A stretch of 33,942 nt of DNA from a virus. Both the position numbers and the translations under genes were made by a program. Positions 6,576-28,668 of this stretch are shown in pieces. Under the pieces are notes generated by a model. That model was given only the letters and a program-made list of their open reading frames with translations, did no database searches and was not told where the DNA came from. The stretch covers positions 1 to 33,942 of the IMG/VR virus record IMGVR_UViG_3300049825_000361. One strand, written 5' to 3'. Each line of letters begins with the position of its first letter. Within the stretch, counting starts at the first letter, position 1.

Positions 6576-6986
6576 ATGTCAATGATCGAGGCGATCGAAA
6601 CGCAACCCGCGCCGGCGCTCGCGGGCTACCCCGCTGGCGCGACCCCGCTGAGCGCGGGCACAGCCAACTTGGCGGCCGCCGCCGGCACGGCGACGCTCAC
6701 GGCGGCGGCGGGCGCCCCGACCTACATTACTGGGTTCGAGATCACGGGTGCCGGCGCGACGGCCGCGTCGGTTGTCCAGGTCACGGTGACTGGCCTTCTC
6801 GGTGGCACGTGCACGTACATTGTGGCGGTCCCGGCGGGAGCCGCTGTCGGCGTCACACCTTTGCTCGTGAACTTCATTCGGCCGGTCCCGGCCAGTGCGG
6901 TGAACACGACGATCGTCGTGAACATCCCCTCATTCGGCGCCGGCAACACGAACGCGACAGCCAGCGTGCACGGCTTCCGGCTCTGA
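6576..6986 (+). CDS. Decoration-like virion protein, paralogue of 12856-13239
   Basis: A 136-residue protein starting at ATG 6576 behind AGAGGA. Its core (ITGFEITGAGATAASVVQVT, then VTGLLGGTCTYIVAVPAGA and GAGNTNAT near the end) closely matches the gene at 12856-13239, so the phage carries two copies of one domain. The extra N-terminus here (about 25 residues, Ala/Pro-rich) is a linker-like extension. A surface or decoration role is inferred from all-beta composition and position. Confidence 0.75.
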   Translation: MSMIEAIETQPAPALAGYPAGATPLSAGTANLAAAAGTATLTAAAGAPTYITGFEITGAGATAASVVQVTVTGLLGGTCTYIVAVPAGAAVGVTPLLVNFIRPVPASAVNTTIVVNIPSFGAGNTNATASVHGFRL

Positions 6987-6994
6987 GGTAATTC

Positions 6995-7873
6995 ATGTCC
7001 CTGCTGCTGGTCCTCGCCGGCCCGGCAGCGCCACCCGCAATCATCGGGGCACGCTTCGCCCTCGCCGCAGTCCCGCGCCGCGACACGCCAGAGGAAGAAG
7101 ATGCAGTTCGCACGGACCACGCCCTTCGTCTGCTCTTTGGCCGCACCCCGGCCGCAGCAGCAACCGCTGGCGCGCCGTGGTACCTGTGGCGTGCGCCGAC
7201 CCAGCGCGCCGAGCCTGAGGAGGATGCGCGCCGCGCCGATCACAGCCTGCTCCACCGCTACCGAGTCGGCTACCAGACGGTCGGCCAGCCTGCCGCGATG
7301 TGGCCGCGCCCTCAGGCCCGCCTGGATGACCTCGAATTTGAGCCCCCGCGCCAGATCGGCCTGGAGGCATTCCGCAAAACTGCCCTCGTCGCCACTGCCG
7401 GTCAACCCTGGTGGATGTGGCCGCGGGCCGTTGCCGATCAGTGGGTGGAGCCGAACCCGATCGTCATCGACCACGCAGCGGCACTTTACCCGTTCCGGCC
7501 GCACGATGCAGTTACGCCGACAGTCCCACCGACAGCGGATGTACAGGTTCCTGCCGGGCGCAAGCGTCATAAACGGTACATCGCGGTATTCAAGGAGCAG
7601 GAATACGAATTCCCCACACTTGAACAACTGGAAGAGTTTGTCGAACAGGTTAGAGCATCGCAAACTCCGAAGCCAAAACGAATCCGCGAACCGATCAGGA
7701 TTAAGCTTGCCAAAGAATTCGCCGAGGAAGTCGCAGAGGTTATAGAACCGCCGCAACGCCTGTCAGCAATGCCGATAAGCGCAGCGCTGGCCCAAGTTCG
7801 GAGAATCGAGCAGGCAATGCTCAAACAGAGAGAGGAAGACGATGAAAACGAGGTCCTTTTATGGCTGATGTGA
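6995..7873 (+). CDS. Hypothetical protein with degenerate Trp-motif repeats
   Basis: A 292-residue protein. The N-terminal half carries three loose repeats ending in Trp-rich motifs (APWYLWRAP, PAAMWPRP, QPWWMWPRA), each roughly 60-80 residues apart and interspersed with acidic DH segments. The C-terminal half is charged and helical, with a Lys/Arg/Glu-rich region (about 185-250) and a Gln/Glu tail. It overlaps the next gene by 13 bases. No family is recognised. Position suggests a head-associated or internal protein. Confidence 0.65.
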   Translation: MSLLLVLAGPAAPPAIIGARFALAAVPRRDTPEEEDAVRTDHALRLLFGRTPAAAATAGAPWYLWRAPTQRAEPEEDARRADHSLLHRYRVGYQTVGQPAAMWPRPQARLDDLEFEPPRQIGLEAFRKTALVATAGQPWWMWPRAVADQWVEPNPIVIDHAAALYPFRPHDAVTPTVPPTADVQVPAGRKRHKRYIAVFKEQEYEFPTLEQLEEFVEQVRASQTPKPKRIREPIRIKLAKEFAEEVAEVIEPPQRLSAMPISAALAQVRRIEQAMLKQREEDDENEVLLWLM

Positions 7874-22353: not shown

Positions 22354-22379
22354 ATAGGGAGAAACCCTTGCCCATTCTA
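22354..22379 (+). pseudogene. Possible displaced 5' end of the tail-fibre gene
   Basis: AGGGAGAAACCC then TTGCCCATTC reads like a ribosome site followed by Met-Pro-Ile. It resembles the working start at 22951-22970 (AGGGATCCAA then GTGCCTATACC). The HNH gene lies exactly between the two. It is short, so chance is possible. Confidence 0.3.
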
Positions 22380-22877
22380 AAGTGTGCACCCCGGATGAAG
22401 TCGGCGTTTCGCTTCGACGTAGGCGGCGTGTGCGAGTTCGGGGGTCTGGAATGTGCCGAGATGGCGTTGCTTGCCGGCTACGCGCAGGATGGCACTCCAG
22501 CTATGGCTGCTAGGGTGTTGATGAACGCCAAGCAACTTGGGCCCGCGTTTGTTGGCATACGGCCGGCGTATGTTTTGACAATTAGTTTGGTGCGACACAT
22601 CGCGCAAGTTGTCAAGTCGGTTGTCCCAACAGAGGCCATTTTTGTGGTCGATTTCCTCCGCCGGCCAGTGTCCATACGTGTAAAGCCAAGCGAGTCGATG
22701 CGCGCGGTAATTTCGCCCGTCAATCTCTATGACAAGAAATCCTCGTGGTTTGAGGGTACCGGCAGCGGTGCCTACGACACAACGACCACGGGTGCGAAGC
22801 CGTGTGAAAACCCCAGTCCCTGGGGAGTAGTGAAGAAGTTCGCGCAGGCGCTCTGCGGTAAGATCGGCAACAGCCAT
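22377..22877 (-). CDS. HNH homing endonuclease with AP2 DNA-binding domain
   Basis: A 166-residue protein. I chose ATG 22877 because GAGGTG lies seven bases upstream and because the N-terminus then aligns with the second HNH gene (26112-26603). HNH core: HRLAW at 60-64, IDHKNG at 76-81 with His78, DNRLDNLRD at 85-93. An AP2-type DNA-binding domain follows at about 117-161 (LGVHQHPSSHSWSAIL). Such free-standing endonucleases cut uninserted alleles and spread into them. It sits antisense between the last internal protein and the tail fibre. Confidence 0.9.
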   Translation of the reverse strand: MAVADLTAERLRELLHYSPGTGVFTRLRTRGRCVVGTAAGTLKPRGFLVIEIDGRNYRAHRLAWLYTYGHWPAEEIDHKNGLCWDNRLDNLRDVSHQTNCQNIRRPYANKRGPKLLGVHQHPSSHSWSAILRVAGKQRHLGTFQTPELAHAAYVEAKRRLHPGCTL

Positions 22878-22959
22878 GATGCACCTCGAATGCTGAGTGG
22901 TCAGAGGCCCACCAGTGTTCAACGCACTGTGTGGGCTCTCGCATTATAAAGGGATCCAA

Positions 22960-25564: not shown

Positions 25565-26115
25565 TCGGCTGGTTACTCAAAGTCGTGCCATGGTGGGGCT
25601 ATGTAGCCGCAGGAGCGCTCGCAGTGACCCTACTGACAGGCTACCACCTCAGTGCAATCTCACAAGCCAAGAAGGCTGGCATTGCACAAGACAAAGCCCG
25701 AAGCGACGGCGTGATCGCCAAGATGGTCACCCAGCACAGCGAAGCGCTAGGAGCTGCAAACGCCAAGACTGACGCCACGAGCGCGATGTTCGAGAAGGTA
25801 AAGCAAGGAGCACAGGATGCACTCAGAACTGCGAACGCAGCGAACGCGAAGATTCGGGCCGCTTTTGCTGCTGTTGTCGGCGAGCGCGATCAGTTGCGCG
25901 ACGAAAGAGCCCGCAGTGCCATCGTTACCGGTGGTGTCCAGGCAAGTGACGATACCGTCACCGCCTGCCGTGAGCGAACCGAAAGAACGTGGTTATCACT
26001 GGAAAAGGCACTGCGCACTAGTCGCGAGTGTGCAGGAGATGCTTCAAACTCCGATGAAGGAATACGAAGTTTGCTCAGAGCTTGGCCTAATCCAATAGTG
26101 GCTGAAGCACCCTAA
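25561..26115 (+). CDS. Rz: i-spanin (Rz-like)
   Basis: A 184-residue inner-membrane spanin with GTG start in a GTGA overlap. One N-terminal membrane helix (WWGYVAAGALAVTLLTGY, about 11-28) is followed by a long periplasmic coiled coil (about 55-120) rich in Ala/Lys/Glu/Asp. It pairs with the o-spanin encoded inside it to fuse inner and outer membranes at lysis. The start of the nested gene lies one frame on. Confidence 0.85.
   Translation: MIGWLLKVVPWWGYVAAGALAVTLLTGYHLSAISQAKKAGIAQDKARSDGVIAKMVTQHSEALGAANAKTDATSAMFEKVKQGAQDALRTANAANAKIRAAFAAVVGERDQLRDERARSAIVTGGVQASDDTVTACRERTERTWLSLEKALRTSRECAGDASNSDEGIRSLLRAWPNPIVAEAP
25817..26098 (+). CDS. Rz1: o-spanin lipoprotein (Rz1-like), nested in Rz
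   Basis: A 93-residue lipoprotein in the +1 frame wholly inside the i-spanin gene, the classic nested arrangement. A short basic N-terminus is followed by LLLLLSASAISC, with the lipobox Cys at 27, and then a Pro-rich periplasmic segment (PAVPSLPVVSRQ). The C-terminal part (about 60-93) is longer than in lambda Rz1. Its last 20 codons have a diverged copy at 26617-26676 beyond the HNH gene. Confidence 0.85.
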   Translation: MHSELRTQRTRRFGPLLLLLSASAISCATKEPAVPSLPVVSRQVTIPSPPAVSEPKERGYHWKRHCALVASVQEMLQTPMKEYEVCSELGLIQ

Positions 26116-26603
26116 AGAGTGTTACCTACATGAATCGCGCGCTTTTCCTTAAGGTAAGCTGCGTAGGCTTTTTCCTTGGTGCTATGTAAACCCAAATGGC
26201 GTTTGCATCCATCGAGAGAAATTGATGCTTGCCATAGGTTCGATGCAGAGTGGAACGTCACACCAAGCAAACCAGACGATTGATTGTCACTCCGCGCTTT
26301 CTTGAGGTTGTGGTGATTCAATCCGCCAGGTGCTTCTCGAAGATTGCAGATTCTGTTGTCTGACCGGTCTCCGTTTATGTGGTCGAGGAGTGGTGAAGGC
26401 AACACGCCGTAGAAGTGCATCCATGCCAAACGATGCGCGTAATAGCGTCCACCACATATCCCGATAAGGCGATAGCCATCGGCTCTGACAGTGCCTGCCA
26501 AAGTCCCGAGACGTGCAGTACCGCCGCGTGCAACTTTCCACAGCAGTGATCCGGACTCAAATTCGTACTCAAGCAATTCTCTGACGTGCTCAGGTGTGAG
26601 CAT
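26112..26603 (-). CDS. HNH homing endonuclease with AP2 domain, second copy
   Basis: A 163-residue paralogue of the gene at 22377-22877, also antisense to the late operon. AGGA lies seven bases before ATG 26603. HNH core: YAHRLAWM at 55-62, LDHINGDRSDNR at 73-84, NLRE at 87-90. The AP2-type domain spans about 113-157. The stop lies four bases inside the i-spanin gene end. It separates the intact o-spanin end on the left from a remnant o-spanin end on the right. Confidence 0.9.
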   Translation of the reverse strand: MLTPEHVRELLEYEFESGSLLWKVARGGTARLGTLAGTVRADGYRLIGICGGRYYAHRLAWMHFYGVLPSPLLDHINGDRSDNRICNLREAPGGLNHHNLKKARSDNQSSGLLGVTFHSASNLWQASISLDGCKRHLGLHSTKEKAYAAYLKEKRAIHVGNTL

Positions 26604-26616
26604 GATTTAGTCCTTT

Positions 26617-26676
26617 CTTGAGACGCTGAGGACGCCTCTGAAGGAGAGCGAAGTCTGCTTACAGCTTGGCCTGTGA
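26617..26676 (+). pseudogene. Displaced 3' end of the o-spanin gene
   Basis: Read in frame this gives LETLRTPLKESEVCLQLGL then TGA, against EMLQTPMKEYEVCSELGLIQ at the intact Rz1 end. Over the 50 aligned bases, 36 match. An in-frame stop (TAG at 26608-26610) precedes it, so it is not expressed as part of Rz1. It lies directly beyond the HNH start codon. Confidence 0.7.
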
Positions 26677-26694
26677 CACGCTGATTTTTGGGTG

Positions 26695-26777
26695 GCCTAA
26701 AACAGCAAAACATCGATACGCCACCGATTTAGGCTGTATCCGATGGTCTTAAGCATGCAGTCTACTTTACGTTATGC
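26695..26777. repeat. Inverted repeats, possibly a decayed attC site
   Basis: GCCTAAA (26695-26701) and TTTAGGC (26728-26734) form a perfect seven-base dyad. CATCGATAC (26711-26719) pairs with GTATCCGATG (26736-26745) with one bulge. GTTATGC at 26771-26777 occupies the position that GTTAGGC occupies in the intact attC sites relative to the adjacent ORF stop. Arm symmetry is poor, so attC identity is weak. Confidence 0.3.
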
Positions 26778-26975
26778 AGCACCATCCACCAGCGGCGCCA
26801 GCTTGTCGGTTTTGCACATCCACAAGCTGCATCGCGGGCACAGTTCTCCGCTGTAGTCGCGCGGCAGTCGCCGCATTGCGCACGACCGAAAAATGTGGGT
26901 GAACTCGCCGCAGTGGCACGGCGCGTGGCCTTGCCTGTATTCGTCCGCCGTCATCGGCCTAGCTTGCGTTTCCAT
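26772..26975 (-). CDS. Small Cys-rich (zinc-binding-like) protein, cassette gene
   Basis: A 67-residue protein with Cys pairs spaced like a zinc ribbon (APCHCGE, then SCAMRR, then ELCPRCSLWMC). AAGGA lies seven bases before ATG 26975, in a leader (GAAGGACAAGACG) nearly identical to that of 27054-27278. The start is about 30 bases from attC site 27006-27059 and the stop TAA lies in GTTATGC at 26771. It therefore fits the same cassette layout as its neighbour. Function unknown. Confidence 0.7.
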   Translation of the reverse strand: METQARPMTADEYRQGHAPCHCGEFTHIFRSCAMRRLPRDYSGELCPRCSLWMCKTDKLAPLVDGAA

Positions 26976-27005
26976 CGTCTTGTCCTTCGTCGGTTTACCA
27001 GTGCT

Positions 27006-27059
27006 GCCTAACAGTTCGCTGAACCGGACCGAGTACGGCCGGTTAGCTGGCCGTTAGGC
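27006..27059 (+). mobile_element. attC: Integron attC recombination site 1
   Basis: GCCTAAC (27006-27012) and GTTAGGC (27053-27059) are the outer R boxes. The inner arms CTGAACCGG and CCGGTTAGC pair, with an extra A in the left arm, as in classical 54-60-base attC sites. The plus strand matches the usual top strand (AGTTCG next to the left box). No integron integrase is in the window. Confidence 0.85.
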
Positions 27060-27278
27060 GTCATCCGAATCAACGCTTTCCAATTTCCCGCGCTTGCGCA
27101 CAATTCGCTGTGCCCATCCACAGTGCGCGCAGGATCGCGTCGTTTTGCTGCAAGCTGGCCCGTTGTACCAGCGCCCGTCGCTGTCTTTCCATGCGCTATG
27201 GTTGTCAGCCGTGCTGAAACCGACCTGGCTCCACATCGGGCATTCGCACTTTGGGCACTTGTCTGCAATCTTGTCCAT
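27054..27278 (-). CDS. Zinc-ribbon protein in an integron cassette
   Basis: A 74-residue protein. I chose ATG 27278, which has AAGGA seven bases upstream; longer versions would run into the attC site. The Cys pattern KCPKCECPMW and later PACSKTTRSCAHCGW is that of a zinc ribbon. The stop TAA is formed by GTTAGGC of attC 1 and the start lies about 27 bases from attC 2, so gene and site spacing are those of a mobile cassette. It reads opposite to the attC orientation. Confidence 0.75.
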   Translation of the reverse strand: MDKIADKCPKCECPMWSQVGFSTADNHSAWKDSDGRWYNGPACSKTTRSCAHCGWAQRIVRKRGKLESVDSDDA

Positions 27279-27299
27279 TCTTTGTCCTTCACCAATGAT

Positions 27300-27409
27300 G
27301 CCTAACCATTCGCTCAAGCGGAATACCAAAAGCGGGCCGAGCTACAGCGCTGCGCTTTAGAACTTCCGCTCGGCCCGCTTTCAGTATCCGCTTAGCTCAA
27401 ACGTTAGGG
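27300..27409 (+). mobile_element. attC: Integron attC recombination site 2
   Basis: GCCTAAC (27300-27306) and GTTAGGG (27403-27409) are the R boxes. CATTCGCTCAAGCGG and CCGCTTAGCTCAAAC are the textbook inner arms. A long imperfect palindrome (AAAGCGGGCCGAGC with GCTCGGCCCGCTTT) closes the 110-base site. The asymmetry (extra A in the left arm) marks the plus strand as top strand, as in site 1. Confidence 0.92.
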
Positions 27410-27410
27410 C

Positions 27411-28001
27411 TCAAAACCCCATGCCCTGCTGTTCAGCCACCGGGGCGGCTTCTTCGTCCAGCAGGGAACCTTGCGCCTGCGCTTGCCGTATGCGCTCGCA
27501 GGCAATGTCGAAGTAGGAGCGTTCACGCTCAATGCCGATGAACTCGCGCCCTTGCTGCACGGCTGCAACGCCAGTCGTTCCGCTGCCCATGAATGGGTCT
27601 AACACCGTCTCGCCGCGCCTGGTCGTCAGCGCCACAAGCCAGCGCATCCAGCCCACCGGCTTGGGCACCGGATGGCCGTTCTTCTCGGCCGTCTCGTTGC
27701 TGGCAATCACGGTCGGGTAGTGCGCGCCCTTGTGCAAGTCCGGGTAGGTGCCGTACAGCAGCACCGGCAGGAAGTTCTTAAAACCCCACTGGTGGCGCCC
27801 GGTCGCAGCGGAGCAGTACACGCCGCCCAGCGCGTCAAACTTCGGCAGTTCGTGAATATGGGGGCCAATGAACACAGCGGCGCGTCCGGTCAGTTGCATA
27901 GCTTGCGTCAGGGCTGGCACCACCTCGGCCACGTAGTTCGCGTAGGTGTCGGCATAGCTGGCATAGGCTTGCAGTTGCAGCCCGTGCGCGCGCCCATGCA
28001 A
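27411..28001 (-). pseudogene. 5'-truncated DNA methyltransferase (N4/N6 class)
   Basis: The frame can start at TTG 28001, directly after the stop of the upstream gene. The remaining 196 residues carry the AdoMet motif DPFMGSGTTGVAA and the following IGIERERSYFDIACERI, plus YASYADTYANYV, which normally comes just after the catalytic SPPY/DPPY motif. That catalytic motif is absent, so the N-terminus is lost and the protein should be inactive as a methylase. The stop is two bases from attC 2. A TTG-initiated fragment may still be made. Confidence 0.7.
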
Positions 28002-28304
28002 TCACGGCATCCACGCAAGTTCAATCGGAAGTCGGTTTTCAATAGCCGATTTGACAACCTCATCCGCGCTTGGTTTTGGCTCTGGATCATCCTCATCTGC
28101 TGTGACTTCGGCAGCGATGTAGTAGTAGTGGTAGTTTTGGGTAATGCCGCTTCGAAGCAAATCACCCTCAGCCACACCTCGGCAAATCGCAGCATTGACC
28201 TGAACCCTGCTGAGCTTTGTTGCTTTCTGAATCTGCTGTGAAGTCATGGGCTTGTTTGCGCAGAGTAAACATATCTGTTGCAGGATTCCATTGTTTGCAG
28301 CCAC
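28002..28304 (-). CDS. Winged-helix-like small protein
   Basis: A 100-residue protein. The first 50 residues (ILQQICLLCANKPMTSQQIQ and SRVQVNAAICRGVAEGDL) read as a winged helix-turn-helix, followed by a beta pair (YHYYYIAAEV) and an acidic linker. It is likely a DNA-binding regulator or replication helper in the early operon. GGGGG precedes the ATG. The last codon is followed immediately by the truncated methyltransferase frame. Confidence 0.65.
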   Translation of the reverse strand: MAANNGILQQICLLCANKPMTSQQIQKATKLSRVQVNAAICRGVAEGDLLRSGITQNYHYYYIAAEVTADEDDPEPKPSADEVVKSAIENRLPIELAWMP

Positions 28305-28305
28305 G

Positions 28306-28668
28306 CTAGCCCCCTTTGATCTTGCGCCTTGCCTCTAGTAACTTTGCCCTGCCTGCAGCTACTGCTTCAGGTGTCTGCACCACATCTTCGAACTTGTGCT
28401 CGGGAACTGCGCCTGACACCTGCACAGGCTGGAATCTCCTATCCTTCAAGGGCCACACATCCAGATGGTTCGAGCGGATCGCCTGGGCCAGTACTGCGTT
28501 CGGTGGGTTCCCTGCCTGGCGCAGCTTGTCGAGTTCTATGATGATGAGCTTCTTTGCGTATTCAGTGCAGGCGTAGCGCTTGCCCATCTTCTTGCGGTTG
28601 TCAAGGAATGCGGCCCATATCTCTGGATCAATCCAGTCGGGGAGCAACTCTCCGAACAGGCTATTCAC
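28306..28668 (-). CDS. Hypothetical early protein, replication-type C-terminal domain
   Basis: A 120-residue protein with pattern DPEIWAAFLDNRKKM, a helical EYAKKLIIIELDKLRQAG, and AVLAQAIRSNHLDVWPLKD. That order recalls the small C-terminal domain of phage replication or DnaT-like proteins. A basic tail ends it (LLEARRKIKGG). It overlaps the gene before by eight bases. The resemblance is from memory of the pattern. Confidence 0.6.
   Translation of the reverse strand: MNSLFGELLPDWIDPEIWAAFLDNRKKMGKRYACTEYAKKLIIIELDKLRQAGNPPNAVLAQAIRSNHLDVWPLKDRRFQPVQVSGAVPEHKFEDVVQTPEAVAAGRAKLLEARRKIKGG

Follow-up and report, generated by a model that had tools for sequence, protein, structure and literature searches.

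An integrase-less integron cassette array with inverted genes in a phage genome, and related arrays in viral contigs

The DNA analysed here (the window), a virus record from IMG/VR that is 33,942 bases long, carries an island of integron attC sites and gene cassettes. Judging from its sequence, this island is likely an integrase-less, partly decayed array (CALIN) of phage-type inverted cassettes, which would be exchanged between phages by an integron integrase (IntI) supplied in trans. The reading is based on the structure of two attC sites, the polarity of the cassette genes in the window and in other viral loci, the position at which DNA shared between viral loci ends, and a clade of phage-encoded IntI in related contigs.

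Results

attC sites and cassettes in the window

We searched for attC sites with a custom structural scanner, which evaluates the R boxes, the L arms and one extra base in L'', so that the calls below are those of this scanner and not of IntegronFinder. At a fixed score of at least 20, the window gave exactly two calls, with scores of 23 and 21. The two sites (attC1 and attC2) lie about 240 bp apart on the plus strand, both within 404 bp. Across 300 dinucleotide shuffles of the window, the scanner made 16 calls of 21–22 and none of 23, and both strands of both sites fold into hairpins with z values of −4.4 to −7.6 against shuffles. Their R'' and R' boxes are complementary and follow RYYYAAC and GTTRRRY. 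In attC1, GCCTAAC and GTTAGGC pair at 7/7 positions; in attC2, GCCTAAC and GTTAGGG pair at 6/7, the last base being G instead of Y. The L arms of each site pair at 8/8 positions, with one extrahelical base on the L'' side. No integron integrase was found among the window ORFs that were read or scanned by profile, and a scan of the window with Rfam gave no match. Two close attC sites with no intI nearby constitute a CALIN.

A preliminary description of this DNA had proposed two genuine attC sites, a 350-bp cassette between them, no integrase and a phage genome as the carrier, all of which are borne out by our analysis. The cassette is delimited by the R' cuts of the two sites (Table 1), and profile matches identify a terminase, an SU10-type portal, DUF5675, HNH and replication genes in the window. 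The same description placed a partial cassette on each side. On the right this holds, since a cut methyltransferase cassette follows attC2, whereas the left one turns out to be a whole cassette.

Table 1. Features of the cassette island and its flanks (window coordinates)
Feature	Position	Strand	Basis
HNH endonuclease gene, left flank, separate insertion	26112–26603	−	PF13392 / phrog_99
Degenerate R' box GTTATGC, left end of cassette A	26771–26777	+	Homology start in L136
Cassette A (282 bp)	26772–27053		R' cuts 26771/26772 and 27053/27054; relatives in viral contigs L136, L223, L193, L240
Gene for 67-aa Cys-rich protein, inverted relative to attC	26772–26975	−	ORF; stop TAA inside R' box
attC1 (54 bp)	27006–27059	+	Scanner, fold, shuffles
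Cassette B (350 bp)	27054–27403		R' cuts 27053/27054 and 27403/27404
Gene for 74-aa Cys-rich (zinc-ribbon-like) protein, inverted relative to attC	27054–27278	−	Start about 20 nt from attC2, stop in attC1 R'
attC2 (110 bp)	27300–27409	+	Scanner, fold, shuffles
Cassette C remnant, right end lost	27404–27998 (to about 28000)		L003/L004 homology
N6/N4 DNA methyltransferase, C-terminal fragment, inverted relative to attC	27411–28001	−	PF01555 profile positions 151–219 of 221
Phage gene abutting the truncated methyltransferase end	28002–28304	−	Weak Ren-like/MarR-like match
Replication-initiator O-like phage gene, right flank	28306–28668	−	phrog_678, 1.2e-9; orthologue in L087

No convincing attC hairpin was found to the left of cassette A, and a candidate third attC at 26690–26777 was dismissed because it has no stable attC fold. 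The left boundary instead comes from homology. Similarity to L136, L223 and L193, all of them viral contigs, sets in at window positions 26765–26777, and the match to L136 starts at window position 26770, which corresponds to the R' box of an attC site in that contig (10588–10648). This start at an R' box, together with the GTTATGC at 26771, defines cassette A. Its 67-aa protein has homologues of 52–90% identity in the four viral contigs given in Table 1. For cassette B, contig L083 has 27054–27297 in common with the window, beginning precisely at the R' cut, and relatives of the 74-aa protein, 64–87% identical, occur in L083/L085 and L084. From 27402, in the R' box, to 27989 the window is 91% identical to L003 and L004, after which the homology ends; the N-terminal part of the methyltransferase with its DPPY motif is present in L003 and missing in the window. 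Meanwhile, beside the intact methyltransferase cassette on the minus strand of L003 (about 6594–7600), we notice an attC site seemingly split by unrelated DNA between the G and the TT of R'. The right end of the window array is gone, and so, probably, is the attC on its left. With no integrase and no recoverable left attC, it may be immobile.

In a bacterial-type cassette, the gene is followed by its attC on the same strand. All three cassette genes of the window (3/3) are on the strand opposite to the attC sites, starting near R'' of the right-hand site and stopping in or beside R' of the left-hand site. They share their strand with the phage genes to the right of the island.

The preliminary description had set the left edge of the island at 26617, but the stretch 26617–26676 was once the 3' end of the spanin-like (Rz1-type) frame upstream, from which it is now displaced, and a copy stands at 26053–26098; the stretch lies outside the cassettes, and we dismissed it as a partial cassette. 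The two copies of this 3' end flank the HNH gene, which seems to have supplied the gene that it invaded with a new C-terminus. A second ORF resembling this HNH protein is located at 22377–22922 on the minus strand, against the late-gene direction. At the right flank, the PHROG match of the 28002–28304 gene to Ren is weak and the identity was set aside. The first 150 bases of the contig consist of short tandem repeats, translated as repeated QLA, which may explain why the assembly stops at this point. Near-identical phages were not found, no plasmid in the plasmid collection carries the island, and cultured phage records show single-gene homology only (mostly to HNH), with no attC in V45v66 or MW202489.

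Cassette genes run against attC in viral arrays

In order to compare polarity in viral and bacterial cassettes, IMG/VR was scanned with two attC patterns and GTDB genomes, as the bacterial control, with one of them. In 199 viral loci selected by pattern, the same caller gave at least 518 attC sites, with two or more sites in 116 of the loci; these are counts of the loci listed, and so lower bounds rather than a measure of prevalence. attC arrays are common in IMG/VR. The earlier view that such sites are unusual in a phage is at odds with their presence in well over 100 IMG/VR loci, itself a minimum, and with the CALINs of virulent phages published in 2023 (PMC9892861).

Cassette genes of the bacterial control read into their own attC. 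When the longest ORF covering more than 60% of an attC-to-attC cassette was scored in the listed loci, 173 viral cassettes were inverted and 40 canonical, against 29 and 190 in the bacterial control, which is dominated by Rubrivivax and other Burkholderiales. Scored per listed locus, the figures are 74 inverted and 10 canonical for viruses, against 3 and 60 for bacteria; the viral loci are partly near-identical contigs, so that the viral counts are not fully independent. A stricter test demanded an ATG start with a Shine-Dalgarno-like motif and scored each cassette by the longer such ORF. By this test, the listed viral loci have 183 inverted cassettes and no canonical one (86 loci), compared with 22 and 83 in bacteria. 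We take the 40 viral cassettes that are forward by the longest ORF alone as antisense artefacts, because those with an ATG start lack ribosome sites (0/27). In records with a terminase or SU10 portal match, the ribosome-site ORF is inverted in 58 cassettes and forward in 3. The inverted layout is found throughout the viral cassettes examined.

Among 75 inverted ORFs, some match DNA methyltransferases, Lar restriction-alleviation proteins, Acb2/Tad1-type proteins, RNA ligase, DHH phosphoesterase, HNH and many PHROGs, which indicates that the inverted frames do code for proteins. Diversity in the pool is very high, as 180 cassette proteins fall into 156 clusters.

Shared DNA often ends at the R' cut

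In pairwise matches of viral loci, 125 of the 335 distinct ends of shared DNA that were near attC sites lay no more than 8 nt from the R' cut (G^TT), while the mirror point in R'' accounts for 17 of 349. As R' and R'' are near mirror images, plain homologous recombination is not expected to prefer one of them. Without recourse to the extra hairpin base, the bias also supports the polarity assigned to the sites. Other viral contigs have boundaries at R' in common with the window cassettes, and the near-identical contigs L239 and L282 differ by single cassettes. A different kind of event is seen between L172 (4714–5162) and L269 (4796–4815). These contigs are 99.6–99.9% identical over about 9.6 kb and one cassette has been lost, with the crossover in a 20-bp R''-L'' repeat and not at R'. 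By its sequence, this loss fits homologous recombination better than IntI acting at R'.

Phages with their own integron integrase

One of 50 array-bearing records (G022) encodes a true integron integrase, matching TIGR02249 with 426.8 bits at a cut-off of 265. Together with 3300048837 it forms a clade with support of 100/100, about 53% identical to bacterial IntI. In this phage clade, located in related contigs and outside the window, the proteins match TIGR02249 and carry the IntI-specific region and the catalytic residues, the conserved columns including R, H, R, H and Y. IMG/VR contains 298 IntI-related stretches, and the viral counts given next come from the best 80 of these 298. Enough upstream sequence was present in 62 viral loci, and in 52 of them the first gene upstream of intI shares its strand. 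Bacterial intI loci show the reverse, with the nearest gene lying on the other strand in 18 of 20. Upstream of viral intI, the genes with a ribosome site that lie between two attC sites are inverted in 46 cases and canonical in none, and the polarity of attC relative to viral intI is the usual one.

Directly before intI, five loci (G022, 3300048837 and three more) share a conserved site, CNAACTTSAATTCNNNGACACC..CCTGTC.GNTAAC, with GTTRRRY-like boxes, which has the look of an attI site. In one clade, which consists of temperate phages, intI closes the cassette side of a co-directional operon made up of inverted cassettes, the attI-like site, intI and a phage integrase. The phage integrase lies downstream of intI, and in L448 it is accompanied by Erf, exonuclease, SSB, endolysin and spanin genes. 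A cassette of G022 is 93% identical over 506 bp to one in L087, a contig whose portal is 63% identical to that of the window. This match indicates that phages with IntI and integrase-less phages like that of the window share cassettes.

Of 401 genomes sampled from a single Burkholderiales family, 171 have an intI relative, and among the matches listed for these 401 genomes no IntI is more than 56% identical to the phage clade. In one bacterial locus, L559 (2846–10202; genome G362, contig C2), an intI 56% identical to the phage clade is found with an inverted cassette array of phage-type genes, the first of them DUF5131-like, and an adjacent phage-type integrase; it is probably a prophage integron in a sequenced strain. 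We also notice that an 'integrase-like' gene of Virus Rctr41k (KX853513, 4680–5678) is an IntI relative (41%), co-directional with the upstream genes and with two attC-like calls downstream.

Discussion

We propose that IntI would cut the folded bottom strand of attC at R', exchanging single-gene cassettes between phages in a common host. For an integrase-less phage, the enzyme could be encoded by a temperate phage that co-infects or resides in the cell, or by the host chromosome. The cassette genes, presumably small accessory or counter-defence functions, would be transcribed from phage promoters reading towards intI and not from the integron Pc promoter. Joining R' to R' fixes polarity, so a cassette from a bacterial integron would enter a phage array antisense to the operon. 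Inverted cassettes would then be kept, and the phage pool would stay largely separate from that of the host.

The preliminary description regarded the island as a piece of a host chromosomal integron, captured once by illegitimate recombination. The attC sequences do resemble the sites that the same pattern brought up in chromosomal integrons of Burkholderiales, intI relatives occur in the sampled Burkholderiales family, and integron pieces in normal orientation have been published for phages (PMC9892861); the attC that we call in TJE1 comes after a methylase gene in the canonical way. However, the window genes run opposite to attC, as they do in other phages but not in bacterial integrons (183:0 inverted to canonical in viruses, 22:83 in bacteria), the closest relatives found for the window cassettes sit in other viral contigs with boundaries at R', and the plasmid collection held no match. 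We consider a single host capture quite unlikely. A metagenomic contig could conceivably be misassembled, or be a bacterial integron contig wrongly classed as viral. The probability of this is very small, given that the contig also carries terminase, portal, spanin-like and replication genes, that other array-bearing records have terminases or portals, and that the polarity is opposite to that of bacterial integrons.

Another explanation is that the attC-like hairpins now serve only as linkers or terminators, and that modules are shuffled at these shared hairpins by phage homologous recombination of the Erf/RecE type, without IntI. Such phages carry Erf-like and exonuclease genes, IntI is missing from most array-bearing records, and the deletion between L172 and L269 crossed over in the 20-bp R''-L'' repeat. 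Against this stand the clustering of breakpoints at R' rather than R'' despite near-mirror boxes, the maintenance of the extra L'' base and the paired arms, and the many viral genomes that encode IntI beside such arrays. We regard it as unlikely, and retain exchange of inverted cassettes by IntI in trans as the preferred account of the window.

We lean towards a broader reading, in which phages have integrons of their own. Inverted cassettes, attI and intI would form one phage operon. IntI-encoding temperate phages and integrase-less lytic phages would draw on one fast-moving, largely counter-defence pool of single-gene cassettes, separated from host integrons by polarity, with the inversion placing the attC bottom strand on the coding strand. 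In Vibrio, excision is strongly raised when attC bottom strands are on the lagging-strand template (PMC11023631). We speculate that cassette exchange could be tied to phage transcription or lagging-strand exposure, since with inverted genes the attC bottom strand is the coding strand, and a replication fork running with phage transcription would expose it.

If this is correct, site-specific cassette exchange by an integron integrase would provide a concrete mechanism for modular gene exchange in phages, which is often attributed to illegitimate or homologous recombination, and phages would be a major, separate reservoir of integron cassettes. It would also guide annotation, as small accessory or anti-defence genes could be sought between two attC sites and facing against them. 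The question of cassette orientation would become directly testable, both polarities occurring in nature.

Comparison with known integrons

The inverted phage cassette architecture appears undescribed: in the open literature searched, with subscription journals and preprints outside its scope, there was no report of inverted phage cassettes or of a cassette-attI-intI operon layout. The closest published work, by Qi et al. (2023), described CALINs in 17 phages, virulent ones included, showed five phage attC sites to be active with IntI1 and noted methyltransferase cassettes (PMC9892861). These integrase-less attC arrays in phage genomes, with their methyltransferase cassettes, are like that of the window. 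The arrays of TJE1 and PH101 were described as typical (PMC9892861), and our own call in TJE1 has normal polarity, whereas the window genes are inverted throughout. The shared cassette pool and the R' breakpoints were found here and not reported in that study.

The sedentary chromosomal integrons of Burkholderiales (Rubrivivax and relatives) are like the phage ones in attC sequence type, array position and attC polarity relative to intI. Their cassette genes are forward and divergent from intI, whereas those of phages are inverted and co-directional with it. Phages of Vibrio anguillarum and Shewanella (M16-3) resemble the phage clade in having an integron integrase in a phage genome, but in M16-3 the neighbour genes are divergent from intI as in bacteria, and its IntI is only about 40% identical. 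In Treponema integrons, as in the phage ones, intI and the cassette genes are on one strand (PMC3607928). The two arrive at this arrangement differently: in Treponema it is intI that is turned round and reads towards attI (PMC3607928), whereas in phages intI is normally placed and the cassette genes are turned, reading towards intI.
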